Source of the DNA: Candidatus Nitrotoga sp. SPKER
GTDB taxonomy: Bacteria > Pseudomonadota > Gammaproteobacteria > Burkholderiales > Gallionellaceae
NCBI GenBank assembly: GCA_003402285.1
Contig: QFXG01000007.1
Span: forward strand, 1-64,000
Length of the DNA: 64,000 nt
Direction: 5' to 3'
Part shown: in pieces, positions 45,317-64,000 of the stretch
Layout: each line of letters starts with the position of its first letter
How positions within the stretch are numbered: the stretch's first letter is position 1
The notes under the pieces: generated by a model
What the model saw: the letters and a program-made list of their open reading frames with translations, nothing else
What the model was told of the DNA's origin: nothing
Database searches by the model: none
Program-made: the position numbers and the translations under genes

Positions 45317-45484
45317 TTTTTCCACCTCCACAATTTTTAAGTTGGTAGCATTATATTACGGTATGTTTAGCAATAGTGTGAGGCTATGGCTATAATTTAT
45401 GCAAAATCTATCTACTATGATAAATTGGAATTATTTAACTCATACATAAAGCAGGTAAGAATCTGGCCTTATTCACTATATTCA

Positions 45485-46108: not shown

Positions 46109-46120
46109 TAAATTTCCCAC

Positions 46121-46578
46121 AAAAAATTACAAATCTTTAATAAAGTAAAACTAAATGCTGAACCTTCTTGACTCGGCAATGAACAGAAGTACAAACATCG
46201 ATCTTGGGCAAATTCAGTGAAACGCTCAATTTAATTCCACCAGAGCTACGCAAAACCCTCATGCACTACTCAGAGCGTAAAATGAGCAAACACACTAACC
46301 AAACAACTAGCTGACACTTATTACTCGCGCAATCCGTCATAACATGATTTGAACGAGTATCAATAATACTACTGCCCTAGTATGTTTCCAGAAGCAGACT
46401 TGTCGATTTACACACAAAAACAACTACCATATTAAATATAGCCACTTAAACATTTACATACCTGAGAAAATCATTCAGACTTTCATTATTGGCAATAGTT
46501 ACAAATTTTACTCAAAATGAAGCTCGACAAATCAACATTAACTGTTGAATTAATTTCTGAATTTACCGTATATTAATT
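46121..46578. other. AT-rich intergenic region
   Basis: A 458-base gap between the stress-protein gene and carbonic anhydrase, both on the minus strand. It should carry the carbonic anhydrase promoter. I see no gene, long repeat or strong hairpin. Confidence 0.4.
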
Positions 46579-47028
46579 TTAATTCGGTCTTAAAACCAAT
46601 ACATCACAAGGTGATAGTTTTAAAAGGCGATCCGCAAAGGAACTAAGAAAAAGGCCAGAAAAACCTCTCTTATTTCTTGTCGCTGCTACAATCATACCCG
46701 CATTAATTTCTTTAGCGTACTCAGCCAGTCGATCTGCTGGAGACTGAGCAAATAAAACTTCAAAATGCGCTTTTTTGAATGCAAGTTCAGGCATCATTTC
46801 TTTTGCTTTATTCTTAATAAACTCTAGCATTTGTTGTTTCAAATTTTCAACTGTCCCCTTGTCGGGGATTTCCTCAAAACCCATCTCACTAACACTAATA
46901 TCTTTCTTGATCACATGAACGAAGTAAGCTTCTCTTTTAGTCCAACCATACTCATGCCCCCACCTTGAAATACTTTGCATAAACTCTTCTTCGGTTGGCA
47001 TAGCAATGACAATCTTTTGTGGGTTCAT
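46579..47028 (-). CDS. Universal stress protein (UspA fold)
   Basis: A 149-residue single-domain Usp. The core begins KIVIAMPTEEEF, and the C-terminal AGMIVAATRNKRGFSGLFLSSFADRLL follows the ATP-loop region, ending CDVLVLRP. The glycine-serine step usually seen after the GxxG pair is not clear, so ATP binding is uncertain. It lies upstream of the carbonic anhydrase/SulP pair on the same strand but with a long gap, so cotranscription is doubtful. Confidence 0.88.
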   Translation of the reverse strand: MNPQKIVIAMPTEEEFMQSISRWGHEYGWTKREAYFVHVIKKDISVSEMGFEEIPDKGTVENLKQQMLEFIKNKAKEMMPELAFKKAHFEVLFAQSPADRLAEYAKEINAGMIVAATRNKRGFSGLFLSSFADRLLKLSPCDVLVLRPN

Positions 47029-47836
47029 TTTAATTAACCTCTAGAGTAAATATAAATCCTTATTTATGACACCAATATACAGTAAATCAACTAGCCAAGA
47101 CAATAATGAGTTGAATTTAAGAAGGTAGCTAATCAATATCTGCAGAATACCACTCCCTGTTCGCATTTCTGATCGTAACTTAATCCTTTTTGTTAATTTA
47201 CATTCAAATGCAGCGGGTGATCGATTGCTCAGCCGAACCTGTATGCGTTGTCGTGTAATATCATGATGTATTCAGTAATTGCCTGAATAGCTTCCACACG
47301 GATTTCAGATCATACATATAGAACACCAGAGCTGCCTAAACTTCTTAAAATGTTAGTCGATAATAAATTTTACTGGACAACGTCCCATTTCACAGAAAAT
47401 AGCCTGAGAAGCAAACTGACCAATAGCACGAAATAACTAGATACTAAGCAACCATGAAGTAAGCTATCATCCCTAGGAATCCTAATCGCTAGATTGGTAG
47501 CACAACTAGCGGTTACCTTATCTAAAGGCAACCCAATAATATTGGAGCAGGCAACCCAATAATATTGGAGCCATAATTTTAGACAGTTAGAAATAGCTAC
47601 AGTGTGGATTCTATCAATCGCGATACAAAAAAACACTTACTACCAAACTTGTGTATCACTAAATGCCAAGCTAAAGGAAATTTTCTACCTTATTCCACTC
47701 ACTGTACCGATTAAATTTTACTGATAATTTAACTCAGAGACAATCAGCTGCAATAGTACAAAATAATAACTCATGCCAAGAAATAAAATTGAATCCCTTT
47801 AACAATTGAAGTCAGATAAATCCTAAAAATCAAAAA
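47029..47836. other. Long intergenic region upstream of bcsB
   Basis: An 808-base AT-rich gap between the divergent Usp gene and bcsB. It contains the tandem palindromic repeat at 47527-47571. No ORF here resembles a protein; the minus-strand frame 47370-47636 spans the repeat and looks random. The bcsBZC promoter must be here. Confidence 0.5.
47527..47571. repeat. Two tandem 22-23-base copies with an internal palindrome
   Basis: GGCAACCCAATAATATTGG plus AGC(A) occurs at 47527-47549 and again at 47550-47571. Each copy contains CCAATA-A-TATTGG, a 6-1-6 inverted repeat, and the centres are 23 bases apart (about two helical turns). Such spacing suits cooperative operator binding. It stands 266 bases before the bcsB ATG and about 500 from the Usp gene. 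Confidence 0.8.
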
Positions 47837-50119
47837 ATGAAACTTTCTGTGATTGCCAATCTCAACCAAACTTTCGTAATGCTCGCAGCCTTTTGTTTGA
47901 GCTTCTTATCTCTTCCATCAGCCGCGCAAATAGAGCCACCACTTCTCGTGCCAAAGATAGAAGCCACAACAATCCCCAGTCGTCAGTCAGTACTAACCAT
48001 GAAAGACATCGGCGCTTCCCGCCCAATCGAGTTGAAAGGCGTGAACAGCAATGCCTATCTTTCTTTGGGTGTGCGATTAGATGAGATCGTCACCAAGGCC
48101 AAGCTGCACCTAAACTACACACTATCTCCCGCACTGCTACCAAATATCTCTCATCTCAAAATATATCTAAACGATGAAGTGTTGGCCACGCTACCAGTGA
48201 CTAAAGAAAATCCGACTGGCCCACAAAAACTTGATGTTGATCTTGATCCTCGTTTTTTTACTGACTTTAACAAACTGCATCTGCAATTCATCGGTCATTA
48301 CACCAATGATTGCGAATTTCCTCTCCACTCTAGCTTGTGGGCCAACATTAGCAACATGAGCACGCTGGAAATGAATTTGCAATCAATTGCTTTACGCAAC
48401 GATCTTGCTCTGCTACCCGCGCCCTTCTTCGACCAACGAGACAATCGCTTACTTAACCTGCCTTTCGTATTTGCCACCCAGCCCTCTTTAAGTTCACTGC
48501 GAGCAGCGGGCGGTATTGCCTCCTGGTTTGGTGCTTTAGCAAGCTATCGCGGTGCCCGTTTTCCGGCCTATTTGAATCGTCTACCAGAACGTTACGGAAT
48601 AGTTTTCGCGACCAATGACGAACGACCAGAATTTCTTGCTAAATATCCCAAGGTGGATGCGCCAACCATCTCTGTGATGCAACACCCGGAAAATCCTACA
48701 GGCAAGCTACTCCTCATCCTTGGTCGTAATGCTGCCGACCTGCAACTAGCCGCAGATGCCTTGGTTCTGGGTAAAGCTGTCATGACTGGTACTTCAATTG
48801 CCGTCAAGACACTGGAGTATCCACCGCGCCGTGTTGCTTACGATGCACCTAACTGGCTGCAATCAGGCCGTCCTATACCATTGGGCCAACTCGTCAATAA
48901 CCCCACTGACCTACAGCGCCAGGGCCAACCTCTCGAACCAATTCTCATCAACGCCCGCTTGCCAGCCGATCTGTTTACCTGGGAAGTAAAGGGAGTACCG
49001 ATTGACCTCAAATACCGTTACACACCACCGGCAGAACAAGGCGATGCCAATCTGAGAATTGAAATAAACGACCAATTTATCGAAGCCATACCGCTGCTAT
49101 CCGGCGCAGTAAGCCGAGAAAAGAACCACCTGTTACTGCCTCTTCTGGATGATGGTTCCTTACGGGAACAAAGTGGCGTGGTGATCCCCGCTTTTCACTT
49201 GGGCAGCAATAATCAACTACAGTTTTCGTTTTCTATTCCTTTCAGTGATAACGGTCGCTGTAAATCTTCACCCCAAGGAAACATGCGTGCTGCAATCGAT
49301 CCAGATTCAACTTTGGATCTGAGCCACTTATATCACTATGCAGCGATGCCAAACCTTGCATTTTTCGCTAATAGTGGATTTCCGTTCACCAAGTACGCCG
49401 ATCTTGCAGAAACAGCGATCGTCATCCCCGATCAGCCTAACACCTTTGACATGGAAGCTATGTTCGCTTTACTGAGCCACATGGGCCGTTCCACCGGAGT
49501 TCCCGCATTGCACTTCAAACTTCTACAGACAAAATCAGTGCAAGATGCAAAAGATCTAGACCTGCTAGTAATTGCCAGCGGTGCTAACAAGGATCTTCTC
49601 GCCAGTTGGGGTAAATCCCTTCCGGCGCTTCTGGAAAAAGGAAGTCGCACCTTTACACCTTTAGGCAAAGCCATGGATATGGCTTATGAATGGTTTGGAC
49701 TGAGTGAAAACAAAACACCCAAGTCCGGAGAGGGTACCATTCTTCTTGGCTCCGGATCTTTGGCCGCTATCATCGGTTTTGAATCACCGCTTAGCCCATC
49801 ACGTAGTGTCGTCGCCATTACTTCGAACACTCCCACGGCATTGACCTCAGCCCTTGATGCTCTGAATGATGGTGGGAAAGTTCAATACATCCGCGGTGAC
49901 CTTGCTTTAATGCGTGGCGAAAGTGTCGAGAGTTTTCGCGTTAATAATGTGTATTACATAGGCGAATTACCGTGGTGGCGCTGGATATGGTTCCACTTGA
50001 ATCACCACCCACTGCTCCTGACTGCTATCGGCATCGCAATCGGCCTTTTTGTTGCTCTACTTGCCTTTGGGGCCCTACGTAATCTGGCTACCAAACGACT
50101 CGGTCAGCATAAGAAATAA
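47837..50119 (+). CDS. bcsB: Cellulose synthase periplasmic subunit BcsB
   Basis: BcsB guides the glucan through the periplasm and anchors BcsA. The 760-residue protein has a signal peptide (about 1-32, ending SAA), a large beta-rich body with two carbohydrate-binding/flavodoxin-like repeats (IELKGVNSNAYLSLGVRLDE at the start of the first), and one C-terminal membrane helix (HPLLLTAIGIAIGLFVALLAFG). It heads the plus-strand arm bcsB-bcsZ-bcsC. In E. coli bcsB follows bcsA directly; here bcsA lies about 7 kb away on the other strand. Confidence 0.95.
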   Translation: MKLSVIANLNQTFVMLAAFCLSFLSLPSAAQIEPPLLVPKIEATTIPSRQSVLTMKDIGASRPIELKGVNSNAYLSLGVRLDEIVTKAKLHLNYTLSPALLPNISHLKIYLNDEVLATLPVTKENPTGPQKLDVDLDPRFFTDFNKLHLQFIGHYTNDCEFPLHSSLWANISNMSTLEMNLQSIALRNDLALLPAPFFDQRDNRLLNLPFVFATQPSLSSLRAAGGIASWFGALASYRGARFPAYLNRLPERYGIVFATNDERPEFLAKYPKVDAPTISVMQHPENPTGKLLLILGRNAADLQLAADALVLGKAVMTGTSIAVKTLEYPPRRVAYDAPNWLQSGRPIPLGQLVNNPTDLQRQGQPLEPILINARLPADLFTWEVKGVPIDLKYRYTPPAEQGDANLRIEINDQFIEAIPLLSGAVSREKNHLLLPLLDDGSLREQSGVVIPAFHLGSNNQLQFSFSIPFSDNGRCKSSPQGNMRAAIDPDSTLDLSHLYHYAAMPNLAFFANSGFPFTKYADLAETAIVIPDQPNTFDMEAMFALLSHMGRSTGVPALHFKLLQTKSVQDAKDLDLLVIASGANKDLLASWGKSLPALLEKGSRTFTPLGKAMDMAYEWFGLSENKTPKSGEGTILLGSGSLAAIIGFESPLSPSRSVVAITSNTPTALTSALDALNDGGKVQYIRGDLALMRGESVESFRVNNVYYIGELPWWRWIWFHLNHHPLLLTAIGIAIGLFVALLAFGALRNLATKRLGQHKK

Positions 50120-50129
50120 GCACCTAGAA

Positions 50130-51341
50130 ATGAAATATTTATTTGTGGGTACAAGACATAAGGCGAGCATTTTGCTCTGCCGGGGATATCAAATTCTCAC
50201 TACGCTCTGCTTTTGCTTGGGAACTGCACAAGCAGTAACAGTCGAGCCTACTTGTCAGGCAGACTGGCCTGCTTGGCAAAACTTCAAGTCGGGATTCATC
50301 AATGAGGGCGGACGGGTAGTGGATGGGAGTACCCCCCGTAAACAGACCGTATCAGAAGGACAAGCCTATGCGTTGTTTTTCGCCTTGGTAGCCAATGATC
50401 GCAAAACCTTCGACAAGATTTTGCAATGGACCGAAAACAACCTGGCAAATGGCGATCTGACCAGCCATCTGCCAAGTTGGCTATGGGGTCGTAGAGATGA
50501 TGGTAGTTGGGGCGTGCTGGATAGTAATCCGGCATCGGATGCCGATCTATGGATAGTCTATGCATTAGGCGAAGCCGGTCGGCTCTGGGGCGAACGCCGC
50601 TTCATTGCGCTTTCATCGCTGCTGGCTAGCCGTATATTACGCGAGGAAACCGCAGTCCTGCCAGGTTTAGGCCCCACTTTGCTACCTGCACCGCGTGGCT
50701 TCCAAACGGGAGAGAAGACTTGGCGTCTTAATCCCAGCTACCTGCCCATGCAGCTAATGAACTGGCTAAGCAGCCGGAGCCCTGATTCCACTTGGCAGCG
50801 AATCTCAGAATCCTCCCAAAGAATCCTTTTGGAATCGGCTCCGAAAGGATTCTCACCTGACTGGACAGTCTATCAGGATAGCAAGGGATTCCGAATAGAC
50901 AGTGCGGGAAAAGAAAAAGGCGCTGGTGGCTATAACGCCATTCGGGTTTATCTGTGGGCCGGCATGCTTGCGCCCGACGCTTCTGCCCGGTCACAACTTC
51001 TTGCTGCTTTTTCCCCCATGGCCAGCTTTATCACGCGCCACGGCTACCCACCAGAGTCTATCAATATCATCACGGGTGAAGCCAATGGTCCAGGGCCATC
51101 AGGATTTTCCTCCGCACTACTACCCTTTCTGGCCGCCCAGGAAGATAGCGCTGCCTTACAGGGACAACGCGATCGTCTAATAGCTCGTCCACCGCGGCCA
51201 GATGCCTACTATGAACAGGCGCTTTCCCTCTTTGCCCATGGCTGGATGGACGGACGCTACCACTTCACGACAAATGGCAGCCTGCTGCCCTCTTGGCAAA
51301 AACCATGCAGCTCCGCCTCCTCCCGATTACCTTCGCACTGA
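50130..51341 (+). CDS. bcsZ: Endo-1,4-beta-glucanase, GH8 (cellulose locus)
   Basis: BcsZ is a periplasmic GH8 cellulase needed for normal cellulose export. The 403-residue product has a signal peptide (ending TAQA), then WPAWQNFKSGFINEGGRVVDG, whose Glu is the expected acid catalyst, SEGQAYALFFALVANDR, and the SNPASDADLWIVYAL aspartate segment. ATG 50130 is chosen; the frame is open upstream to 50049 inside bcsB. It starts 10 bases after bcsB and overlaps the bcsC start by 37 bases. Confidence 0.95.
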   Translation: MKYLFVGTRHKASILLCRGYQILTTLCFCLGTAQAVTVEPTCQADWPAWQNFKSGFINEGGRVVDGSTPRKQTVSEGQAYALFFALVANDRKTFDKILQWTENNLANGDLTSHLPSWLWGRRDDGSWGVLDSNPASDADLWIVYALGEAGRLWGERRFIALSSLLASRILREETAVLPGLGPTLLPAPRGFQTGEKTWRLNPSYLPMQLMNWLSSRSPDSTWQRISESSQRILLESAPKGFSPDWTVYQDSKGFRIDSAGKEKGAGGYNAIRVYLWAGMLAPDASARSQLLAAFSPMASFITRHGYPPESINIITGEANGPGPSGFSSALLPFLAAQEDSAALQGQRDRLIARPPRPDAYYEQALSLFAHGWMDGRYHFTTNGSLLPSWQKPCSSASSRLPSH

Positions 51342-54300
51342 CTCTGGCTGGGTTGCTAAGTATTCCAGCCCTTGCCCGTTCAGAAAATAACGCTAGCGCC
51401 GACCTGCTGCGCAGCGCTCACATGTGGGAAGCCAAGGATCGCCCGGATTTAGCACGTGTCATACTAGAAAAATTACTGACCATCGAATCCAACCCAGAAG
51501 TACTATTTATGCTGGGAAGCATTGAGCTACGGTCAGGAAATATAAAACTTGCCGGCGATTATTTACATCGCCTGGAACAGCATTATCCTCACCACCCCAA
51601 AACTCTGGGTCTGCGCAGCCTGTATCGGGTTAACACCACTGAAAAACAGACTCTGGCAAACGCACGCCTGATGGCCAGAGCCGGCAATACCAAGGAAGCT
51701 GCCAAAATCATGCGCCGGTTATTTCCAGAAGCTCCTCCTCCCGGTGAACTCGGACTCGAATATTACCAACTCGTAAGTAGCACTGCCGCAGATCAGCAAA
51801 CAGCAAAATCCGCTCTCGACAACCTTTACCGGGAAACAGGAGAAGCGCGCTACCGCCTTGCCTGGCTTAAGCTGCAAAACAATCAGCGTAGCAACCAGGA
51901 AATCCTGCAAGGTTATGAATCCTTGGCCGCTGCGCCCGACGTTAATCGACAAAAATTACGCGAAAACTGGTGGGCTGCCATAAAACGTCTGGCAGCAGCA
52001 CCGGCAACCCTGCCTTGGATCCGCCGCTATTTAAAAGAATTTCCAAACGACCAGAATGCCATCGAATATCTGGCAGAACTACAACAATTACATGAAAAAG
52101 CGCTGCGCATCGCCAACGACCCTGCGGTACGTGCCCGTCAAACTGGGATCACTTTTCTGGAACACGATCAGCTGGAAGATGCCCAACGTGAGCTGCAAAA
52201 GTCGCTATCAAAGCGCCCCAAAGATCCCCAAGTGCTCGGTAGCATGGGCTTGCTTCGCTTGCGCCAGGGACAGCACGAAGAGGCTAAAAGCTGGTTTCAG
52301 CGTGCAGCCAAGGCTGAACCGGGCAGCAACAAATGGTCTGGTTTGATCCGCACCGCAACTTTCTGGGGACAAATGAAACGGGCCGATGAGCTACTCGAAG
52401 CCGGGAAACTGGTTGAAGCACAACAATTTGCACGACAAGCACTGAGTATCGATCCAAACAATGCTGATGGACTCGCTCTACTGGGCAATATTCTCGACCG
52501 GAGTCAGCATCTAGCCGATGCCGAATCACTCTACCGTGAGGCACTCAAACGCGATGTGGGCAATACGTCGGCTATGCGCGGCCTACTTACACTGCTCTCA
52601 CGTAGCGAACGTCGCGATGAAGCTCAAGCGTTGATTGCCACATTCCGCCAGAATAACCCCAAAGAAGTTAATCGATTCAACGAAAGCCAAGCCAGCCTGC
52701 TACGTGATGAAGCCGAGGCATTCATCAGCGCTCACCAGCCCAGCCACGCCCTGCTAGCATTAGAAACCGCTGTACAACTCGCCCCCCGTGATGCCTGGAT
52801 TCGCCATGACCTAGCAAATCTGTACGAGAGTTTGGGCTTGCCGATTCTCAGTCGTCGTGTAATGGCAGAGGGTATTGCGCTGGTTCCAAACGAGCCATCC
52901 ATGAACTATGCCTATGCTTTAGTGCTGTCTGCCCAAGAACGGGAAATAGAAGCACTGCAACGCTTAGCCCGTATTCCCCCGTCCGCACGTTCCAGCGCCA
53001 TGAATGAACTGGAAACGCGTACATGGATCAAATTGCGCATTCGTCAGGCCACAAAACTCCAGGCTAATGAAAGAAAAGACGAAGCGATCCGAATGCTGCT
53101 CCTTGCGGAACAACATGCCGCAAACAACAATCCAAATGCAATCGAACAAGTGTCGGAAGGCTGGTTTAGTCTGGAGCAACCGGCTCGCGGCCTCGCCCTG
53201 ATGAAACGACACCTGATTGACACGAAATCAGCGACGATGGACAGCCAACTTTATTATGCTTCATTGCTCAATCGAGCCAAACAGGATGACGCCCTGAGCA
53301 TTTTTCTGCTGGAACTACAGCAACATCCCGACTGGAATGACAAACAACGAGAGACCATACTGGCAATTGAAACTGACCTTGCTGCCCGGCAAATTGAACA
53401 GCTGCTACAGCGTGGCCAAATAGCTCAGGCTCGCACTCTCGCTGACCGGGCGGTCGTTACAGGACGAACAGGCGACATTTCGACGCTGAAAGCTCAGGCC
53501 CGTCTGCTGCTAGAGGCTAACGACTGGAAAGCCGCTCTACTGATCTTGCAGGCGATACTGGACAAATATCCAGACGACTTGGAGTCACGTCTAAATCTCG
53601 CGCAAGCTCACGCGCAGGCAGGCGACAAACAGGCTGCTCAGGCAACAATAGATCAACTACTGCCTCGTTTGCATGAGAATGATGTGGATACAAAATTGTC
53701 CATTATCCGATTGGAAGCGCGTCTTGGAAATATGAATCGAGCTAGGAAAATAATAAAGAAACTCCTCACCAGCAACCCCAACAATCCAGATGTGATGATT
53801 CAGGCAGGTCGTATCGAGCGCAGTGATCGTCAGTACTCGGCTGCCTTGGCTTATTTCCGCCAAGCACTGATCTTGGAGAAGCGCGCTCCGAACGTAGCGA
53901 CAACCGCCGAATCCGTGCCTCTACTCGACCTGGATCCCAAACACCCATTAATCGGCTTAGCACCACAACCTAGTTACGCCTTAGGGTATCCCAATGCAGT
54001 TAAGAATTCAGACAACACCGATAAACAAGAATCTGCGACAAAATCGAATTTACATAACCCACTCGCTCCGTCCACAACAGTACCAGGAAAAATAACTTTA
54101 ATCCGCCGCCCCACCACAGCTGAAGAGGAAATTACCCGTATTGAAACCAGGCAAGACCCCCGCATTGAAGTAGGATTCGAAAAGCTCAGCAGAAACTCTT
54201 CAAACGGCACATCTACCTATCATGGAACAGAGACTCCAATAATCGGATGGTGGCCGGTGGGCTACGATGGACACGGTTTTGTCCACGTGGATCGGGTCAG

Positions 54301-55279
54301 CGTCGATGCAGGCGAACTTACTCAAGACGACGCCCCTCTCTTTGGCAAGCTGGGTGTAAGACCTTCTTCTCTTCCTCCTCCATATTCGCAAAAAGTAGAG
54401 GGCACTTCGGTCGGTATGGGCTATGAGGGTGATCAATTACACTGGGATCTGGGCATGATCGGTATCGGCTTTCCGGTACAAAATATGGTCGGGGGTATTC
54501 GCAAAGCCTGGGAAGCAAACAACGTGGATTACGCCCTTGAAATTTTCCGTCGCCCACAAACTAACAGCCTACTTTCCTATGCTGGCACACGCGATCCCGC
54601 TACAGGTGAAATCTGGGGAGGTGTCGCCTATACTGGATTTAGCGGTCGAATCGCCCACACTTTTGGTCAGTTTAATACCTTCGCCAGCGCGGAATATGGC
54701 CTATTACGGGGCAAAAATGTACTCGATAACAGCCGTATCGCCCTACGTACTGGCATAGACAAAGACGTGCTACGCCGGGAAAACATGTGGGTCAATCTGG
54801 GATTCACGCTAACCCACTGGCGCTACAAAGAAAACGAATCTTTCTACACTTTTGGTCATGGCGGTTACTACAGCCCACAAAAGTACACTTCAGTAAACAT
54901 GCCGATAGAGTGGGCAGGTCGCAGCGGAAAACTTTCCTATTTGGTGCGAGGCTCAACCTCTTTCGCCTGGACTTTTGAAAAACGTATGCCTTATTACCCA
55001 ACCGACAGCGCGTTACAAAATGATGCTGTCAATAGTGGAAATGGAATCGACTCTGGATTTTATCCCGGGGGGGACGGCGGTGGAAAAGGCTATTCCCTGC
55101 GGTTGGCAACCGAATATCAGATTACGCCCCATTTAGCTATTGGGGGATACCACAACATGGATCGCACAGCTTTCTATACTCCAAATCTAACTTTCGTCTA
55201 CTTACGCTACCTGTTTAAGGCTCATTCAGAACCAGTGCGCTTCCCACCGATAACGGCTAGGCCTTACTCCCGCTTCTGA
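51305..55279 (+). CDS. bcsC: Cellulose export outer-membrane protein BcsC
   Basis: A 1324-residue protein: a signal peptide (ending ALA), a long TPR superhelix (about 30-890) with many typical pairs such as LARVILEKLL and EEAKSWFQRAAKAEPGSN, a Pro/Thr linker, and a C-terminal barrel (about 960-1324; starts near RIEVGFEKLSRNSS). It forms the exit pore. ATG 51305 gives the signal peptide directly; a TTG at 51293 is also in frame. Its TGA abuts the bcsG stop on the other strand (TGATCA), with no terminator between. Confidence 0.95.
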   Translation: MQLRLLPITFALTLAGLLSIPALARSENNASADLLRSAHMWEAKDRPDLARVILEKLLTIESNPEVLFMLGSIELRSGNIKLAGDYLHRLEQHYPHHPKTLGLRSLYRVNTTEKQTLANARLMARAGNTKEAAKIMRRLFPEAPPPGELGLEYYQLVSSTAADQQTAKSALDNLYRETGEARYRLAWLKLQNNQRSNQEILQGYESLAAAPDVNRQKLRENWWAAIKRLAAAPATLPWIRRYLKEFPNDQNAIEYLAELQQLHEKALRIANDPAVRARQTGITFLEHDQLEDAQRELQKSLSKRPKDPQVLGSMGLLRLRQGQHEEAKSWFQRAAKAEPGSNKWSGLIRTATFWGQMKRADELLEAGKLVEAQQFARQALSIDPNNADGLALLGNILDRSQHLADAESLYREALKRDVGNTSAMRGLLTLLSRSERRDEAQALIATFRQNNPKEVNRFNESQASLLRDEAEAFISAHQPSHALLALETAVQLAPRDAWIRHDLANLYESLGLPILSRRVMAEGIALVPNEPSMNYAYALVLSAQEREIEALQRLARIPPSARSSAMNELETRTWIKLRIRQATKLQANERKDEAIRMLLLAEQHAANNNPNAIEQVSEGWFSLEQPARGLALMKRHLIDTKSATMDSQLYYASLLNRAKQDDALSIFLLELQQHPDWNDKQRETILAIETDLAARQIEQLLQRGQIAQARTLADRAVVTGRTGDISTLKAQARLLLEANDWKAALLILQAILDKYPDDLESRLNLAQAHAQAGDKQAAQATIDQLLPRLHENDVDTKLSIIRLEARLGNMNRARKIIKKLLTSNPNNPDVMIQAGRIERSDRQYSAALAYFRQALILEKRAPNVATTAESVPLLDLDPKHPLIGLAPQPSYALGYPNAVKNSDNTDKQESATKSNLHNPLAPSTTVPGKITLIRRPTTAEEEITRIETRQDPRIEVGFEKLSRNSSNGTSTYHGTETPIIGWWPVGYDGHGFVHVDRVSVDAGELTQDDAPLFGKLGVRPSSLPPPYSQKVEGTSVGMGYEGDQLHWDLGMIGIGFPVQNMVGGIRKAWEANNVDYALEIFRRPQTNSLLSYAGTRDPATGEIWGGVAYTGFSGRIAHTFGQFNTFASAEYGLLRGKNVLDNSRIALRTGIDKDVLRRENMWVNLGFTLTHWRYKENESFYTFGHGGYYSPQKYTSVNMPIEWAGRSGKLSYLVRGSTSFAWTFEKRMPYYPTDSALQNDAVNSGNGIDSGFYPGGDGGGKGYSLRLATEYQITPHLAIGGYHNMDRTAFYTPNLTFVYLRYLFKAHSEPVRFPPITARPYSRF

Positions 55280-56857
55280 TCACAATCCAGGCTGATAATC
55301 GATCCATGTGCCCTCAGAGCGCATCAGATAACCGTTTTCACGCCCAATGACAACGATATCTTCGTTTTCGCTCACAAAAGGTGTACCCGGCAGATTTTGT
55401 AACCGTTCCGCCAGAGGTTTACCACCCGTTCCGGCAAAGGGACTGTCCGCGATAAAATCGGCAAGAAGTGTGCTAATTGCAAAGTAACTCACCGATTTAT
55501 CCACCTGCAAAGGTTGATGTGGCGTATCTCCAGACTTACCCTTAAAACCTACCAGTTTGATGGCCGCGGGCACCAATGTGATCTTGGGATTGGGAATTTC
55601 ACGCATACCGGATATCTGCACCTTGTCTCCCCGCAAAGCAGCACCATGTTCCGGTACTAAAATCACCACCACCGGCCTTCCTTTGCCCTCTAGGAAAGTA
55701 ATAAAACGATCAAAATCTGACATCAATTTATCCAGTCGTGGTTTGAACGTTTCCAAACTAGAGCGTGACTTAACCCCAGAAACACGGTTTCCATCATGCA
55801 AGGCAATAGTGTTGTAGTACAAGGCTCGGGGCCGAACTGATGGCGGCTGGCGTGCCCACCACTCCGAGAGTAGCGGGAAATCCTCATAAATAGGGGTATC
55901 GTCAAAACTGTGCATCACTACGGGGGCGAAACGGTTGTCATCCAGTTTTACCCCGATACCCGATGGTTCTTGTACCATGCCCGCAAATTGGTCGAAGTGT
56001 CCATCATGGTTAAGCAGGCCCCGCACTTCGAAGCCGGCAGCTTCAAAATTACGGAAAAGATTGCATTGAGACGCATCCACTTCATACAGCTTGCGATGCG
56101 GAAGCTGCCCACAATTACTGTGAAACAAACGTAAAGCACCTGGGCCGCTGTAGCTAGCGGCAGTATTAAAACGGCGAAATACTACATCAAAACGATTTAA
56201 CAGGGTCGAGCTGTTTTCACCTACATAATCCATATCGTCCCATGAAAGAGAACAGACATGTAAAAACACCACATCAAAAGGGGCAGCAGAATCTGCAATC
56301 GAGGGAAAACTTACCCGTTTGTCTTGTTCGGCGGTGTAAAAGGCTTCCAACTGGGCGGTAGGCTCCAGCTTAGGCAAAACCGTAGCGCTTCCATTCACTA
56401 ACGTCGGATGAGGAGCAACAACCGAGACAGCATTGCCACCTTGCAAATTAGCAAAGGGCGCGCTCAAAATGCCAAGAAAAGCCAAAGTAGCAAAACGCAG
56501 ACGACGACGAAGCAGCAGATAAGCTACCAGTAGGAGACCCAGAGCAGCAATCACCCAGATATTTATAAAGCGGCCTAGAAGTTCAAGTAAATAATCGCCA
56601 CCAAACCCTGTCAGCGCTTGCTTCTGGGAAAGCACGCGCGAAATCGGTGGCAACCAGGAGTCATGGTAAAGCAAGGCCAGCCCCAATGGCATCGCCAGTA
56701 TCGCGCGAATCAAGCGATGCCGATCAGACGCCAGAGGTAGCACAAGCACAATGGCGAAGACCAAATTAGGAAGCCAATGAAAGCCAATAAATCCGCTGTA
56801 AAATAAGCCCAGCTTGGCAATAAAATAAATACTCCAGTAACCCATGAGTGCTATCAA
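55280..56857 (-). CDS. bcsG: Cellulose phosphoethanolamine transferase BcsG
   Basis: BcsG transfers phosphoethanolamine to cellulose in the periplasm. The 525-residue protein has membrane helices in the first 160 residues and an alkaline-phosphatase-fold domain after about 190: FLHVCSLSWDDMDY, the nucleophile region AASYSGPGALRLFHSNCGQ, and VVVILVPEHGAALRG with the metal-binding His. It is downstream of bcsA (49 bases) and last in the minus-strand arm. ATG at 56845 (MGYWSIYF) is an alternative start. Confidence 0.94.
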   Translation of the reverse strand: MIALMGYWSIYFIAKLGLFYSGFIGFHWLPNLVFAIVLVLPLASDRHRLIRAILAMPLGLALLYHDSWLPPISRVLSQKQALTGFGGDYLLELLGRFINIWVIAALGLLLVAYLLLRRRLRFATLAFLGILSAPFANLQGGNAVSVVAPHPTLVNGSATVLPKLEPTAQLEAFYTAEQDKRVSFPSIADSAAPFDVVFLHVCSLSWDDMDYVGENSSTLLNRFDVVFRRFNTAASYSGPGALRLFHSNCGQLPHRKLYEVDASQCNLFRNFEAAGFEVRGLLNHDGHFDQFAGMVQEPSGIGVKLDDNRFAPVVMHSFDDTPIYEDFPLLSEWWARQPPSVRPRALYYNTIALHDGNRVSGVKSRSSLETFKPRLDKLMSDFDRFITFLEGKGRPVVVILVPEHGAALRGDKVQISGMREIPNPKITLVPAAIKLVGFKGKSGDTPHQPLQVDKSVSYFAISTLLADFIADSPFAGTGGKPLAERLQNLPGTPFVSENEDIVVIGRENGYLMRSEGTWIDYQPGL

Positions 56858-56906
56858 CTCCCGAATTTTATTTGACCTGCGATCATTAAATCACGTATCT
56901 CCCAAG

Positions 56907-59444
56907 TCAACTCCGAACTAACTGACGCTGCCTAGTCAAGCCTTTAACCAGGTTACGCCACAGACTACGGTAACCTTTAAATCCGAAAATAGCGATTTCT
57001 TTGAAGCTCTGTAGAGGACGATCTACATCCTGTTCGTTCGACCAGTTCCTCCACGCATCGGCGCGGGCAAAAGTACATTGAACCAGATTTGCTTCCTGCT
57101 CTATGCTCAAATTATCGAACTGAACACCAAGCTTGTTACCATGACTGGCAATTACCCTTGCAGGAAAAGTGCATTCCACTTCGCCATACCAAAGTGAAAT
57201 CCAAACCCGTTCTTTCACTGGCAGTTCGAATTCCCGGTCGAGCAGCAAGCCAAGACCAGTCATGGAATAATCTTCAGTACGACACATTCTTGTACTCCCA
57301 TCCATAAAATGCAATGCCGCCAGCAAGTTGGTAGACACTCGGTGAGATACTCGCACCTGCCTGGCTTCAGTGGCAACGCCAATAGCTGCACCCAATATGA
57401 GAAGGTTGTAGGCTGTCCAGGTCAAGTTGAGCAATACGGTTCCCATTTCAAAAGTGTTCCAGAAAAAAAATCGCACCAGACCGATGGTCAATCCCACAAT
57501 ATTAAGCGCAGCTAGCACAATATACGGCTTGGAAATGGTCCAGTCGAAGAAGGAATGTTCGATCAAGCCTCCTTTAGCTGTAACATTGAATTTCCCGGCT
57601 TTCGGATTGAATATGGCAAGAGCTGTAGGCAGGATGATGTACCAAGCTAAAACCGATTCATATACCTCGGCCCAGAACGAGTGTCGATGTGCTCCCTGAA
57701 TATGCGCATTAGCCAGATTGGCCTGCAACATATGGGGCAACACGTAAACGGCAAGCATAGCGGCTGCCGCGCTAATTATATGAACTTCAAAATAAAGATA
57801 GGTTAAAGGAGCGGTCAGAAAAATAAGACGCGGAATACCGTAGAAAAAATGCAGCATCGCGTTGCTGTAACAGATGCGTTGAAAGAAACTTAATCCCTTA
57901 CCCAAGAATGGATTGTCGATTCTAAAAATCTGCGCCATACCTCGTGCCCAACGAATACGCTGCCCGATGTGGCTAGAAAGGCTTTCAGTAGCCAGCCCTG
58001 CTGCCAAGGGAATATTAATATAGGCAGTGGTATAGCCAAGCCGGTGGAGTTTCAGGGCAGTGTGTGCATCTTCGGTCACTGTTTCCACGGCGACCCCACC
58101 CACCTCTTCGAGTGGCCCCCGACGCAATACCGCACAAGAACCACAGAAAAAAGTGGCATTCCAGAAATCATTGCCGTCCTGGATCAAACCATAGAACAAT
58201 GCACCTTCGTTAGGGACACGGCGGAAAGTGCCAAGGTTACGCTCAAAAGTGTCAGGGGAAAAAAAGTGATGGGGCGTTTGCAGCATCGCGCAACGCTTAT
58301 CCTTGAAAAACCAACCCATTGTAGACCGCAAAAAGGAATTGGTAGGTAAATGGTCGCAGTCAAAAATGGCCACATATTCGCCGTGGGTCAATTTTAGTGC
58401 ATGATTCAGATTGCCCGCTTTAGCATGGACATTGTCAGGCCGAATGATGTAGCCCACACCAGCTTCTTTGGCAAAGCGACGAAATTCATCCCGTCGCCCA
58501 TCGTCGAGAATATAAATATTGAGCTTATCACTAGGCCAGTCTATCCCCTTGGCTGCAAGAACCGTCGGCTCTAAAACCTTGAGCGGCTCGTTGTAGGTGG
58601 GAATGAAGACATCAACACTGGGCCATAAGGAAGTATCCAATGGCAGACTTGAGGTATGCCGCTTGAGTGGCCAGGCATTCTGGATGTAGCCGAGTAAAAG
58701 AACCAGCCAAGTGTATATCTCCGCAAGCAGTAAACAGATGGCAAGAAAAGTTTCCCACCCAGAATCCAGCGGGATGGTCTGGGTCAATCGCCACCAGCCG
58801 TAACGACATGAAGCGAGCACCGAAAGAGCGATCAATATCAGAGCGGGCAAATTGCCGGGAATACGCTGCACAAACAGCGCGGTTCCCCATAAGCAGACAA
58901 GGAATAAAAACTGTCCAAACCAGGTAAAGGGAGTGGTCACTATCAACCAGAAAAAAAATATTGACAACAGAACCAGTAACCACAATAACAAAGGTTTTCG
59001 AAAAGAAGGGGTCTCCAGCCATCCTTCCAAGCGCCGACCAAGCGCCTCGTGATCCACTGCCGGAAGAAAAGAAAGTAGCTGCTGCCCAAGCCAACGCAGG
59101 GTTCGAACACCTGCCTGCACAATCCACTCTATTGTTAAAAACAACAGATTGATGAGGCTAACCGATAAAGTTAGCAAAGTACTCCAGAGAGAAGTTTCGG
59201 TACGCGCGGCGTGGCCCGGAGGGAATATAAATAAATACAGCAACCACTGCCGGACGCTACGCTTGTCCACTACTCCTAGTTTCTCAGCTAACCAATCCAG
59301 CGGTTCAGGGCGCGATTTAATCTTCAGATGCGCCAACTCCGTCAATTCATCAGTATTCGACAATAAAAACAATCTCTTCAACCATAGGCTTGGTTGATCT
59401 AGTCGAAACACCCCTAAATGACGAACGATCCAATGGCGCATCAA
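56907..59444 (-). CDS. bcsA: Cellulose synthase catalytic subunit BcsA
   Basis: BcsA is the processive glycosyltransferase that makes and translocates glucan from UDP-glucose, switched on by c-di-GMP. The 845-residue protein has several N-terminal helices, the family-2 motifs DDG (314-316), DCD (362-364), TED (457-459) and QRIRW (495-499), further helices, and a PilZ domain with VRVSHRVSTNLL and DYSMTGLG. All catalytic motifs are intact. The order bcsQ-bcsA matches E. coli, but bcsB is not next to it. Confidence 0.97.
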   Translation of the reverse strand: MMRHWIVRHLGVFRLDQPSLWLKRLFLLSNTDELTELAHLKIKSRPEPLDWLAEKLGVVDKRSVRQWLLYLFIFPPGHAARTETSLWSTLLTLSVSLINLLFLTIEWIVQAGVRTLRWLGQQLLSFLPAVDHEALGRRLEGWLETPSFRKPLLLWLLVLLSIFFFWLIVTTPFTWFGQFLFLVCLWGTALFVQRIPGNLPALILIALSVLASCRYGWWRLTQTIPLDSGWETFLAICLLLAEIYTWLVLLLGYIQNAWPLKRHTSSLPLDTSLWPSVDVFIPTYNEPLKVLEPTVLAAKGIDWPSDKLNIYILDDGRRDEFRRFAKEAGVGYIIRPDNVHAKAGNLNHALKLTHGEYVAIFDCDHLPTNSFLRSTMGWFFKDKRCAMLQTPHHFFSPDTFERNLGTFRRVPNEGALFYGLIQDGNDFWNATFFCGSCAVLRRGPLEEVGGVAVETVTEDAHTALKLHRLGYTTAYINIPLAAGLATESLSSHIGQRIRWARGMAQIFRIDNPFLGKGLSFFQRICYSNAMLHFFYGIPRLIFLTAPLTYLYFEVHIISAAAAMLAVYVLPHMLQANLANAHIQGAHRHSFWAEVYESVLAWYIILPTALAIFNPKAGKFNVTAKGGLIEHSFFDWTISKPYIVLAALNIVGLTIGLVRFFFWNTFEMGTVLLNLTWTAYNLLILGAAIGVATEARQVRVSHRVSTNLLAALHFMDGSTRMCRTEDYSMTGLGLLLDREFELPVKERVWISLWYGEVECTFPARVIASHGNKLGVQFDNLSIEQEANLVQCTFARADAWRNWSNEQDVDRPLQSFKEIAIFGFKGYRSLWRNLVKGLTRQRQLVRS

Positions 59445-59446
59445 AG

Positions 59447-60214
59447 TTACACCTTTCCGTCGAGGCTGCTTGCGGGTCCAGCAAGCAGCCAGTTGAGCAA
59501 ACCGTTCAAATCATGGGCGACCAGAGAATCCGGGCTTAAGCTCTGTAAGTTCGTTCGATTTGCAACAGCACGGGGAATCGCTTCATCCCGATGCACGGGA
59601 TAAGGTGAGAGTCGCATTTGTAAGGTCGATCGAAATCGTGCCAATAGATCGTTTTGCAGTGTCCGGGTACTATCCAAACCATTTACTACATAGATGAGCT
59701 GACTCCCTGGAGCGCACCGGGATAAAGTAGCTTCCACTGCTGGCAACAAAGCCAGGGAGCGAGCATCGGGCGCCAACACAGCAAGCACCAAGTCTGCTGC
59801 AACTATGGCCTGACGTGCATAGAGAGAAGGCAGACGGGACGTATCAATCAATAGAAAAGCCTCTGACGGATAATCAATCTGAGCGATACATTTACTGAGC
59901 CACTCAGGTTCTGCACGCAGATGTTGCTCAAAAGTGACCAGACTAGTTTCATTGGCTCGGCCAAATGGCAAACAAGCCACTCCATTTGAGTTGACAAGCG
60001 CACTCTTGCCAAATTCTTTCTTTGTTAAAAAATCTGGCAACAGACCACCTAGGCTCGCCTCACCGCTACCAAATAGAGTAGACAATAGGTTTTGGGGATC
60101 AAAATCCAAAGCCAGAACCGCGATTTCGCGCTGGGCAAGCAAGATAGCCAAGCTGGCCGTCAGGGTGGAACGACCCACCCCACCTGCAGCTGAAACAATA
60201 GCAATCTTAAACAT
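59447..60214 (-). CDS. bcsQ: MinD/ParA-like cellulose protein BcsQ (YhjQ)
   Basis: A 255-residue P-loop protein that helps place and assemble the cellulose machinery. The N-terminal SAAGGVGRSTLTASLA is the variant Walker A loop of this family, lacking the first Lys of ParA and carrying Arg in place of the second. LALDFDPQNLLSTLFGSGE and LLIDTSRLPSLY are the other switch parts. Its ATG overlaps the end of bcsF closely, and its stop is two bases from the bcsA start. Confidence 0.92.
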   Translation of the reverse strand: MFKIAIVSAAGGVGRSTLTASLAILLAQREIAVLALDFDPQNLLSTLFGSGEASLGGLLPDFLTKKEFGKSALVNSNGVACLPFGRANETSLVTFEQHLRAEPEWLSKCIAQIDYPSEAFLLIDTSRLPSLYARQAIVAADLVLAVLAPDARSLALLPAVEATLSRCAPGSQLIYVVNGLDSTRTLQNDLLARFRSTLQMRLSPYPVHRDEAIPRAVANRTNLQSLSPDSLVAHDLNGLLNWLLAGPASSLDGKV

Positions 60215-60217
60215 ACA

Positions 60218-60388
60218 TCAGTTCTTCGCACCCGGCATCCGTTCGGTATGACCAGGTTTATAGGGCACTATACAACGTAAATACCGACGCAAGAATAGAC
60301 GCCGTAACAGCCGGTACTTCACTACATAGTAAGTAACTACCGCTAACAGTACGCCTGAAAGGAGAGATAAAATAAAATTTTTCAGCAT
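60218..60388 (-). CDS. bcsF: Small cellulose membrane protein BcsF
   Basis: A 56-residue frame, MLKNFILSLLSGVLLAVVTYYV then KYRLLRRLFLRRYLR, ending with PYKPGHTERMPGAKN. It has one membrane helix, a basic segment and a short tail, matching the layout of BcsF, which tethers BcsE to BcsG. The frame is complete with ATG and TGA. It starts 12 bases after the bcsE stop, and its TGA lies three bases before the bcsQ ATG. The sequence is divergent, so the name rests on size, topology and place. Confidence 0.8.
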   Translation of the reverse strand: MLKNFILSLLSGVLLAVVTYYVVKYRLLRRLFLRRYLRCIVPYKPGHTERMPGAKN

Positions 60389-60399
60389 TATCAAAGAAT

Positions 60400-62196
60400 T
60401 TATTCAGATAAAGTAGAACACATGCCCGCCGTTGCACGCCGCGGCAAGGAAAAAGGTCGCATGGCACGGTGCTTATCCACTGGGCATATCAACTTAAGCT
60501 CAGTAGTTTCAACCGATGAAGACGGGAAAATCTGTTTCATCTGCTTCTGGGGGCCAGCTGTTGCGATCGAACGCTTGGCTTTGTCTTCCAGAATTGGCAA
60601 ATCGACTTGTAGTACTGATGAGTAATCGTGCATGGGCGAGTTTTCATTGTCTCGCCGCAACTGATCGATGGACTCCCAGATCAACTCAGGTGTCGGCTCA
60701 ATAATATGGGAAGAAAACAGCTCCGTCACAGGCACGGAAAAAAGCCGATCAAGCGTCGAATCCACATCCGACTCTCGGCAAGCAAACAAAAACAGATAAA
60801 TACTATTCTGATCGGCAGTAAAGATATCGCCAAGTCTCCTTGCCTGGCAAGCCTGAAGAGCGTCCAGTTGTGCCACTCTGGAAAGAATTGGAAGGCGTAT
60901 CAAGCTATGGCCCAGATCAATACGTTCGGAACGCTTGAGCATTGCCGTCACTTCGCGACAAAAAATGGACGGCGATAGGTAACCGGCAATTTGGTTGGGT
61001 TCAGCAGCCTGCACCGCAAGAAGATATTCATTCTCCATCGGGCGACTAAATACTTGGTCAGACATGGTATTTATAATCTGCACTACGCGAGAGAATGGAA
61101 TTTCCTTGTACACCATCAAGTTGATCCCCAAACGCAGGAGCATCAACTCGTTATTGTAACGAAGCTTGTTGGTGGTTTCTCGCACAATAATTTTCAAGGA
61201 GCGGGGGTGGGACGAGCGCATGCGATGGACAAATCGCGATAGTGCTTCAAACTCATGATCACCATCCGCGTGTAACAGGATGGTAGCGGCCACCGCATTA
61301 TCACAGATCGCTTCCATATCGGACAAATCACTTGCCACTATCCATTCTGCGGGCACACCTTTGACTCCGGCAACGGTCGCTGCTGTCGCTATGACTCGCC
61401 CTTGGTCAGGCGCATAAAAAACTACCTGCCCTCCAGCATTCATTTCAGAACTATCTGAACTCAGAGACTTATCCTGTTCGGACAATTTCAGACCAAATTG
61501 CCGATGCACACTCTTATCCTGCCCTACCCACCGCTCAATAGTTAACAGGCCTCCACCGCAATCTCCATCCAATACGGCAAGGTTAGGTACAAGCTCCGGT
61601 AAAGTTTGCAGCAATGGCAAAAAACCATGAGCTCCGTTAATATCTTTGATTATTAGCAGAATGGGCGCATGGCGATTTGCAGCCCATTCCTTCCAGGCTT
61701 GCCACTGTTGGATAAATAAATTTTTGTTCTGCCAATCAAAAATCGCCTGGCCCTCCTGAATCAGCAAAGTGTGGTGTGCGGTCACGCCACAAACACCAAT
61801 CTCATCAAAGAAGCGATCAGCACCCAGACGTCCTATAACCTCGGCACAATCATTGGTAACACGGAAAAAAACAAGTGGTCCAGGATTGTCTTTATCAACG
61901 GTACCAAGGCTGCGAGCGAACCGATCCATAAATTTCTGCCCGGACTCTCCCGATGCTAATATGGCCAACGGCCCTGCCTGTCTAAAATTACGTGCTGCCG
62001 AGAGTGCACAACACTGCCCTAGTGCCTCGTCCCGCACCAACAAAACACTCGTCAAACCGGCACTGCACAGACCCACATCAGCAGGTAAACCAAACACTCC
62101 CAGATGAGTTTGATCGATCATGACTCCCCTCGAAGTACTGTCTTTGCGCAATAAGCGCATGATCAAAGACATAAATCGCCCAAACATATTTATCAT
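60400..62196 (-). CDS. bcsE: Cellulose biosynthesis protein BcsE
   Basis: BcsE is a cytosolic c-di-GMP-binding protein that boosts cellulose output. The 598-residue protein has a degenerate RecA-like first half (GDCGGGLLTIERW, VFYAPDQGRVIATAATVAG) and a later GGDEF-like I-site (GIL) region (about 380-500). The start at 62196 overlaps the dgkA stop as TAATG, which suggests coupling; the frame is open to 62226. It is first of the cellulose genes in this arm, after dgkA. Confidence 0.88.
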   Translation of the reverse strand: MINMFGRFMSLIMRLLRKDSTSRGVMIDQTHLGVFGLPADVGLCSAGLTSVLLVRDEALGQCCALSAARNFRQAGPLAILASGESGQKFMDRFARSLGTVDKDNPGPLVFFRVTNDCAEVIGRLGADRFFDEIGVCGVTAHHTLLIQEGQAIFDWQNKNLFIQQWQAWKEWAANRHAPILLIIKDINGAHGFLPLLQTLPELVPNLAVLDGDCGGGLLTIERWVGQDKSVHRQFGLKLSEQDKSLSSDSSEMNAGGQVVFYAPDQGRVIATAATVAGVKGVPAEWIVASDLSDMEAICDNAVAATILLHADGDHEFEALSRFVHRMRSSHPRSLKIIVRETTNKLRYNNELMLLRLGINLMVYKEIPFSRVVQIINTMSDQVFSRPMENEYLLAVQAAEPNQIAGYLSPSIFCREVTAMLKRSERIDLGHSLIRLPILSRVAQLDALQACQARRLGDIFTADQNSIYLFLFACRESDVDSTLDRLFSVPVTELFSSHIIEPTPELIWESIDQLRRDNENSPMHDYSSVLQVDLPILEDKAKRSIATAGPQKQMKQIFPSSSVETTELKLICPVDKHRAMRPFSLPRRATAGMCSTLSE

Positions 62197-62573
62197 TACC
62201 TCAGAGACCACAAAATCATGGCCCAAATTAAAATGGCGTTCGTTAATGCCAACAAAACGGCAGCACTACCCATATCCTTTGCCCTTTTAGCCAATGGATG
62301 AATATCCAATGACACTCGATCCACATTGGCTTCAATGGCCGAGTTGAGCATTTCCACCACCAATATCAGCATAAGGCTAGCCACTAACAACACCCGCTGA
62401 GTCACGTCTACCGGCACCATGAAAGCCACCGGCACAAGAACAATAACGAGAATAACTTCTTGACGAAAAGCGGCCTCCTCTCGCCATGCAAGTAGTAATC
62501 CAGACAGGGAGTAACTCAGGGCATTCACTAACCGACGTAACCCGGAAGTTTTGTGAGGATTAACACTTGTCAT
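62196..62573 (-). CDS. dgkA: Diacylglycerol kinase (prokaryotic, integral membrane)
   Basis: DgkA phosphorylates diacylglycerol for lipid recycling. The product of about 125 residues has GLRRLVNALSYSLSGLLLAWREEAAFRQE and the signature VVEMLNSAIEANVDRVS with the catalytic Glu, and three membrane helices. ATG 62573 (MTSVNPHK) is used; another ATG is at 62588. It heads the minus-strand cellulose arm and overlaps bcsE by one base. Confidence 0.93.
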   Translation of the reverse strand: MTSVNPHKTSGLRRLVNALSYSLSGLLLAWREEAAFRQEVILVIVLVPVAFMVPVDVTQRVLLVASLMLILVVEMLNSAIEANVDRVSLDIHPLAKRAKDMGSAAVLLALTNAILIWAMILWSLR

Positions 62574-62588
62574 GTTTACGAATTTCAC

Positions 62589-63032
62589 CCTATCGATTTA
62601 ACTTCGAAGTAAACCACTTGCTAGTCTAATGCATCGTTTTTAATAGAATGATTATTTACTCATTAATTTCGAGATAGAAACTTTCCATGATGCTGTTACA
62701 CATAACACCCAGAGTATTTTAAATTTTGCCTTTTTCATACCGGCCATACTACGTGTTCATCTAATTCTTCGTAAGTTCCTTAATTATCGGTCAATTTTAT
62801 TAAAGCTTAAAATAGTAGAGCATCTAGTAGATTAGCCAGAATATCTATTGCATGTTGTGCATGCCAAGTAAATAGGCGTATCGGATTAACTTAGCTTTCG
62901 TGCAATTAAAAAACAATGCCGATGGTTTAAGAACCGAACACAAGGTGATCTATCATTCCCTAATTGCTTGAATTATCCTATTGTCATACAATGATAATCA
63001 TTCTCATAAAATCATGAAGCACGCTAGTACTG
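62589..63032. other. Intergenic region between divergent dgkA and FecI-like gene
   Basis: A 444-base AT-rich gap. The dgkA-bcs promoter must lie in the left part. A Fur-type site (62987-63005) is near the right end, before the sigma-factor gene. No gene is seen. Confidence 0.5.
62987..63005 (+). promoter_or_regulatory. Fur box upstream of the FecI-like gene
   Basis: The core ATGATAATCATT is exact, and the whole 19-base site matches the consensus GATAATGATAATCATTATC at 16 positions. It ends 27 bases before the start codon at 63033, so Fur bound here would block the promoter when iron is plentiful. Confidence 0.85.
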
Positions 63033-63539
63033 ATGTCAACGGCAAATACCATTTCTCAGGAAATTGAATCACTCTACAGCAATCATCATAATTGGCTGTG
63101 TGGGTGGTTACGCAAAAAACTGGGGACAAACTGTGACGCGGTTGACTTCGCACATGACACTTTCCTGCGTATTCTTACATCACGCGACCTATTTTGTATC
63201 CGCGAGCCCCGTGCTTATCTCGCCACGGTCGCAGGCGGATTAGTCGCTCATCATTATCGCCGGCGCGCCATTGAAAAAGCTTATCTTGACGCGCTAGCCA
63301 GTTTGCCAGAACCGGAGACTCCTTCCCCGGAATACAGTGCTATTTTGTTGGAAACATTAATTGAGATTGATCAATTACTCGATAACTTGCCTCTAAAAGC
63401 ACGCCGAGCGTTTTTACTGGCGCAACTCGAAGGTTTGACTTATGCGGAAATTGCTCAGCAATTAGGTGTATCCGTCAGCATGGTTAAACAATATATGCTG
63501 CGTGCCACACAGCAATGCTATTTTTCGCTCTCGCTCTGA
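63033..63539 (+). CDS. FecI-like ECF sigma factor
   Basis: A 168-residue ECF sigma factor of the iron-starvation group. Region 2 carries DAVDFAHDTFLRIL and a PRAYLATVAGGLVAHHYRRRA helix; region 4 holds LEGLTYAEIAQQLGVSVSMVKQYM, the -35 recognition helix. A Fur box lies just upstream and a FecR-like gene three bases downstream. It likely activates a TonB-dependent siderophore receptor beyond the window. Confidence 0.94.
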   Translation: MSTANTISQEIESLYSNHHNWLCGWLRKKLGTNCDAVDFAHDTFLRILTSRDLFCIREPRAYLATVAGGLVAHHYRRRAIEKAYLDALASLPEPETPSPEYSAILLETLIEIDQLLDNLPLKARRAFLLAQLEGLTYAEIAQQLGVSVSMVKQYMLRATQQCYFSLSL

Positions 63540-63542: not shown

Positions 63543-64000
63543 ATGGCCACCAAAAATGCGGTTGGTTCTACTGCTATGCCTAAGCAAACCACTACTTTTA
63601 CAGAGGTTGAATTACCCTTCAATACCCACGTTGCTCAGCAGGCATCCGAATGGCTAGTCTTGCTAATTTCCGGTACTGCCACAGATGATGATCGCCATGC
63701 CTGGGAAAAGTGGCGCAACGCCGACCCAGAACATGGTCGTGCTTGGCATCACATTGAAAATATCAACCAGCGCTTTCAGGGAATACCCACTGACATTGCC
63801 TTCAAAACATTGGCTCCCAATGTTTTACAAAATCGCCGTCGCTTGATTAAGGCACTCACTATAGTACTCATGGCAAGTGGAACGGGTTTGATCGTTCGAA
63901 AGACGACACCCTGGTGTGAATGGACTGCCGACTATCGAACCAGTACAGGCGAACAGCGTAAGCTTACGTTGGCAGATGGCACGCTCGTTGTGCTCAATAC
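63543..64000 (+). CDS. FecR-like anti-sigma regulator, truncated by the window edge
   Basis: An open frame of 152 codons from ATG 63543 to the window end. Residues 30-75 form the DUF4880 N-terminal region that binds the sigma factor (ASEWLVLLISGTATDDDRHA, then WEKWRNADPEHGRAW). A membrane helix follows (about 103-118), then the start of the periplasmic FecR domain (RTSTGEQRKLTLADGTLVVLNT, split here by the edge). It directly follows the sigma gene and should be cotranscribed. Confidence 0.9.
   Translation, partial: MATKNAVGSTAMPKQTTTFTEVELPFNTHVAQQASEWLVLLISGTATDDDRHAWEKWRNADPEHGRAWHHIENINQRFQGIPTDIAFKTLAPNVLQNRRRLIKALTIVLMASGTGLIVRKTTPWCEWTADYRTSTGEQRKLTLADGTLVVLN

Follow-up and report, generated by a model that had tools for sequence, protein, structure and literature searches.

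The cellulose locus

Candidatus Nitrotoga sp. SPKER is a nitrite-oxidising bacterium. The window analysed here, 64,000 nucleotides of contig QFXG01000007.1 from a 2.98 Mb genome, contains cellulose synthesis (bcs) genes that open reading frames and family models sort into two arms facing each other: the forward strand carries bcsB-Z-C (47837-55279), and the reverse strand dgkA-bcsE-F-Q-A-G (62588-55280). Judging by strand, bcsA and bcsB presumably belong to different transcripts.

The forward arm encodes the co-polymerase BcsB (47837-50119; PF03170, 722 bits); the family 8 endoglucanase BcsZ (50049-51341; PF01270, 247 bits; NF008305, 518 bits against a cut-off of 299); and BcsC, with TPR motifs and an outer-membrane pore (51293-55279; PF05420, 319 bits, plus TPR models). 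The bcsZ coordinates are those of an open frame from TTG, and its exact start is unsure. A long AT-rich stretch before bcsB contains a short direct repeat, read by eye (47530-47576). Genes for a SulP-type transporter and a carbonic anhydrase (43676-46120, reverse strand) adjoin the bcsB end; such genes also lie beside the bcs locus in some relatives.

The reverse arm begins with dgkA (62196-62588, with an alternative ATG start at 62573), whose product belongs by sequence to the prokaryotic diacylglycerol kinase family (PF01219, 117 bits, cut-off 22.3). Residues 9-125 of its 127, a span of 117, align without gaps to the solved diacylglycerol kinase 3ze3. It also carries the conserved glutamate/asparagine and KD stretches of Escherichia coli DgkA, which we take to be the marks of the family. 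Divergent from dgkA is a gene for a FecI-type ECF sigma factor with sigma-70 regions 2 and 4 (63033-63539); the open frame that follows it at 63543 is, by position alone, a putative FecR-type partner.

Next come bcsE (open frame 60400-62226; PF10995, 308 bits; TIGR03369, 254 bits, cut-off 245) and, nearer the junction, bcsQ (59447-60214; TIGR03371, 198 bits, cut-off 158). Between them lies a gene (60218-60388) that is bcsF-like in position and shape, encoding 56 residues with an N-terminal hydrophobic stretch. Neither the BcsF nor the BcsR model of Pfam matches this protein at E ≤ 1; in some Comamonadaceae the same bcsE-bcsQ position is occupied by small proteins whose sequences contain a similar (L)RCxxPY stretch. 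The name bcsF is putative, taken from position and topology alone. The cellulose synthase BcsA, with a PilZ domain (56907-59444; NF008558, 1089 bits, cut-off 992; PF07238, 50 bits), has an N-terminal extension of about 140 residues, which may correspond to the BcsG-recruiting N-terminal region of type II BcsA, though its phmmer alignment to the solved BcsA of 7lby covers residues 142-829 only. The arm ends with the phosphoethanolamine transferase BcsG (55280-56857; PF11658, 570 bits; TIGR03368, 560 bits, above its cut-off). Its residues 7-522 align to the solved BcsG 9b8v, and the SYSG stretch bearing the nucleophile is conserved.

Nothing in the whole genome matches the BcsR model (PF10945) above its cut-off, the best score being 12 bits on another contig. 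In 14 control genomes the same model gave weak matches in seven and a match above the cut-off in one, and bcsR is not treated here as essential to type II membership. Type II features found by family models are the bcsA, bcsB, and bcsC core together with bcsE, bcsG, and bcsQ, the last three above the cut-offs of their models. The locus is predicted to be of type II, that is, a phosphoethanolamine-cellulose locus.

The stop codons of bcsC and bcsG abut exactly, TGA against TCA, in the hexamer TGATCA (55277-55282). A scan for terminator-like and promoter-like signals found neither at 55280, and the idea of such a signal at the junction was dropped. Over positions 46500-63100, terminator-like sites are no more frequent than in shuffled sequence (17 versus a mean of 19.9); promoter-like sites number 31 in the region versus 22.1 shuffled (sd 4.5). 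A sequence-only reading of this DNA had described two facing arms with abutting stops, no terminator between them, and no bcsR, and the analysis agrees with it on each of these points.

One of several common arrangements

In E. coli, phosphoethanolamine-cellulose genes are ordered bcsRQABZC with a divergent bcsEFG. The window shares with this type the core genes as well as BcsE, BcsQ, and a BcsG that matches the solved protein over most of its length. It differs in its facing arms, which put bcsA and bcsB on opposite strands; in having no BcsR above the cut-off; and in holding dgkA within the block. Another likeness is the bcsB-Z-C-E-Q-A-G order of Acidovorax, Paraburkholderia, and Caballeronia: like the window, these loci combine a B-Z-C module with an E-Q-A-G module and keep bcsA at a distance from bcsB. 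Some of those loci also have a linked dgkA, there beside bcsB. However, they run on one strand and their dgkA, where linked, is divergent from bcsB, whereas the window has two facing arms with dgkA first in the bcsE arm.

The sequence-only reading took the facing arms and the separation of bcsA from bcsB to be unusual, and proposed a comparison of bcs order in relatives. Neither feature turns out to be so. A sample of 150 genomes from the family includes 19 of the genus, of which 12, the window genome among them, have a close BcsA; all 12 show the same convergent order. Among named bcsG loci (the best 80 of 375; nine of Nitrotoga type and 71 others), bcsA-G faces bcsC-(Z)-B in nine of the 71: two from Oxalicibacterium, and one each from a betaproteobacterial bin, Azovibrio, Nevskia, Stagnimonas, a Nevskiaceae bin, Peristeroidobacter, and Hydrocarboniphaga. 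The order is common, the very outcome that the sequence-only reading had named as its refutation, and its status as a peculiarity of the window genome is rejected. In the same best 80 of 375, C-E-Q-A-G runs on a single strand in 28 loci; bcsB was seen in only two of these because elsewhere the stretch stops short of it. Upstream DNA read in seven Burkholderia-group genomes does contain bcsB-Z-C, and so does a Caballeronia grimmiae plasmid. The separation, too, has precedent: an operon survey describes bcsA in betaproteobacteria as rearranged, apart from bcsB (PMC7112194).

A BcsA tree was built for 64 chosen loci by a quick method, without truncated or odd layouts and with long branches flagged; on it the convergent label requires four changes, so the layout is either old or repeated. 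Nothing indicates a special function for the facing order or for the separation of bcsA from bcsB, both of them ordinary rearrangements.

Might the facing arms nonetheless be a regulatory device, in which converging transcripts overlap and damp each other? The stops of bcsC and bcsG lie 0 nt apart in seven of the 12 genus loci and 0-6 nt apart in all 12, and the absence of a terminator-like site at the window junction would suit such a device. But the nine convergent loci outside the genus have gaps of 12-241 nt; one of these gaps (L116) holds a hairpin flanked by A/T runs that, read by eye, resembles a two-way terminator; and compact gene ends can be accounted for without any such device, which makes this explanation most improbable. 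The facing layout, as one of several common arrangements, matters little.

Diacylglycerol kinase at cellulose loci

The position of dgkA is another matter. Eleven of the 12 genus bcs loci have an intact dgkA ahead of bcsE, and the distance from the dgkA stop to the conserved bcsE ATG is 8 nt in the window and 7-8 nt in all 11. This close spacing bears out the earlier view that dgkA is joined to bcsE, which recurrence elsewhere extends; the two genes are presumably co-transcribed. The twelfth locus, of Nitrotoga BS (G051), retains a 46-codon dgkA remnant before bcsE (L037:16864-17004), with an intact copy on another contig. A further genus member (G061) has kept dgkA and shows no bcsA or bcsG match. 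The window genome has a single dgkA copy, as far as was found.

Linkage extends beyond the genus. In the family sample, BcsG was found in 30 of 150 genomes and DgkA in 133; among the matches listed, 17 of the 30 have dgkA either within the bcs block or as a neighbour of bcsG. Eleven of these are Nitrotoga. In five others (G091, G116, G120, G126, and G141) dgkA directly follows bcsG, bcsZ-bcsC adjoin, and neither bcsA nor bcsB was found in the stretch; in the last, G004, dgkA precedes bcsG. The remaining 13, in which the stretches around bcsG were inspected (some broken by contig ends), show no link: G051, G015, G019, G038, G041, G044, G056, G059, G068, G085, G119, G123, and G135. The non-Nitrotoga bcsA loci examined in the family showed no DgkA close to bcsA, the G004 copy lying just outside the stretch, beside bcsG. 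The pairing of bcsG with bcsZ-bcsC in five family genomes (L184-L189), two of which (G091 and G141) have several bcsG-like genes, possibly marks a second phosphoethanolamine-modified polysaccharide.

For 48 of 81 bcsG loci (the best 80 of 375 plus the plasmid), the genomes or records behind them were searched. DgkA occurs in 45 and lies at the bcs locus in nine: eight of the Burkholderia group, including two C. grimmiae strains, and G004. The other 39 show no visible dgkA link. In C. grimmiae, dgkA is divergent from bcsB.

A second sample comprised 77 genomes of Paraburkholderia, the genus of G551 (P. diazotrophica, locus L155). BcsG was found in 29 and DgkA in 75. Ten of the 29 carry a dgkA on the contig of bcsG, 13.4-14.4 kb away from that gene; DNA read for three (L171, L172, and L175) places dgkA next to bcsB, and the distance suggests the same for the other seven. 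In two genomes (G602 and G581) bcsG and dgkA sit close to the starts of separate contigs, and neither genome is counted as linked or unlinked. At least 17 of the 29, contig ends aside, have no dgkA near bcsG on the same contig. At least two dgkA copies are present in 12 of 13 genomes with an upper-score BcsG, one of 16 with a lower-score BcsG, and three of 48 without BcsG, a division of BcsG made by score rather than by tree, after the scores had been seen. The samples were drawn by tool, and related genomes within them are not independent.

The link recurs in Caballeronia, in Paraburkholderia, and in other members of the window genome's family; it takes four layouts, and the DgkAs involved come from different branches. 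A tree of 71 chosen DgkA domains, 32 of them linked, requires six label changes versus a shuffled mean of 23.9, and at least four of the six are forced by starred branches. Linked copies form separate groups: Nitrotoga; the family bcsG-dgkA pairs, among which the unlinked G085 copy falls; G004 alone; and a Burkholderiaceae group that sits beside unlinked copies from the same genomes. Different layouts and separate tree groups make recruitment look repeated. The small number of alignment columns and some long branches leave the number of recruitments uncertain, but the dgkA-bcs pairing seems, from these comparisons, to have formed repeatedly, in different bacteria. The DgkAs of G061 and G051 nest within the linked Nitrotoga copies, so dgkA can also leave the block. 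Support for placing the Nitrotoga DgkAs with those of Burkholderiales is only 90/76; a test against grouping with seven unlinked family copies, chosen after the tree had been seen, gave a p-AU of 0.043. Arrival of dgkA together with bcs from outside the family is too weakly backed by these values to be claimed.

A probable role in lipid recycling

These observations suggest a model for the type II locus. BcsA would make and extrude the glucan; BcsB, BcsZ, and BcsC would carry it across the envelope; and BcsE, BcsF, and BcsQ would help complex assembly. With phosphatidylethanolamine as donor, BcsG would attach phosphoethanolamine to the glucan. Diacylglycerol would remain behind in the inner membrane, and DgkA, encoded first in the bcsE-F-Q-A-G arm, would convert it back to phosphatidic acid. 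Because dgkA lies a few bases before bcsE in the same arm, lipid recycling would rise with cellulose modification. DgkA probably does rephosphorylate the diacylglycerol freed by BcsG: gene content, order, spacing, and recurrence are all seen in the DNA, and from them we infer the catalysis and the metabolic coupling.

The lipid logic, already proposed in the sequence-only reading, agrees with the published BcsG model, which has phosphatidylethanolamine as donor and diacylglycerol as the released product (PMC11379886). DgkA is described as salvaging diacylglycerol, which E. coli dgkA mutants accumulate (PMC8027125). Moreover, two reports place dgkA next to several mcr genes and propose it there as diacylglycerol recycler (PMC7559476, PMC10285318). 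The mcr-3-dgkA and eptA-pap2-dgkA pairs resemble the window in that a phosphoethanolamine transferase gene adjoins dgkA (PMC7559476, PMC10285318); they differ in that the acceptor is lipid A and the transferase of the EptA family, rather than cellulose and BcsG. In the literature searched, which took in few subscription papers, no paper was found that names bcsG or bcsA together with dgkA.

Genome content fits the same pattern. No EptA-type transferase (EptA_B_N) match was found in any of the 12 bcs-bearing genus genomes, the window genome included. G018 gave neither a BcsA nor a BcsG match at the thresholds applied; there eptA, a PAP2 gene, and dgkA stand in a row, in that order, with overlapping open frames (L089:7395-10208). 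Most simply read, dgkA tends to accompany a phosphoethanolamine transferase that the cell uses. G079 also has eptA, and there eptA and dgkA are on different contigs. BcsG may not be the sole source of diacylglycerol, since the window genome has three Sulfatase-family proteins, two of them scanned against Pfam; and dgkA, being single-copy there, must also serve any other source.

Could dgkA instead be a bystander, a housekeeping gene that has come to lie beside bcs in some lineages with no shared function? Its single copy in the window genome would suit one, as would its departure from the block in G051, its persistence without bcsA and bcsG in G061, and the many BcsG genomes without a link; the last two, the 39 of 48 and at least 17 of 29 genomes showing none, and the separation of eptA and dgkA in G079 all count against the recycling link as well. 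The G051 remnant and the 13 of 30 unlinked family genomes likewise argue that any link between dgkA and bcsG is not obligatory. A bystander, however, would hardly be expected in four layouts from separate DgkA tree groups, in additional copies found mostly within a single BcsG-bearing set of Paraburkholderia, and at the tight bcsE spacing retained in all 11 intact Nitrotoga loci, and this explanation seems unlikely, if still worth keeping in mind. A shared function of another kind would have DgkA mainly supply phosphatidic acid, or alter the membrane, for synthase assembly rather than remove the diacylglycerol left by BcsG. In favour of such a role, dgkA adjoins bcsE rather than bcsG in Nitrotoga, and in Paraburkholderia and Caballeronia it adjoins bcsB. 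But in G004 dgkA precedes bcsG, and in five genomes of the family (Gallionellaceae) it directly follows bcsG with neither bcsA nor bcsB in the stretch, an arrangement that supports recycling. We know of no published role of DgkA in synthase assembly, and this explanation is very improbable.

Recycling of the diacylglycerol left by BcsG is therefore the preferred explanation. A broader proposal is more tentative and falls a little short of an even bet: that DgkA is a repeatedly recruited accessory of phosphoethanolamine-cellulose synthesis, provided in some lineages by a dedicated second copy; that a hard-working BcsG depends on diacylglycerol recycling; and that several groups wired dgkA to bcsG independently.

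The fate of the diacylglycerol that BcsG leaves behind appears to be a gap in the phosphoethanolamine-cellulose model. The seemingly repeated origin of the gene link suggests that DgkA performs the recycling step, and the bcs-linked second dgkA of Paraburkholderia and Caballeronia offers a direct test of recycling. If the proposal is true, the known association of dgkA with phosphoethanolamine transferases for lipid A would come to include one whose acceptor is a polysaccharide.
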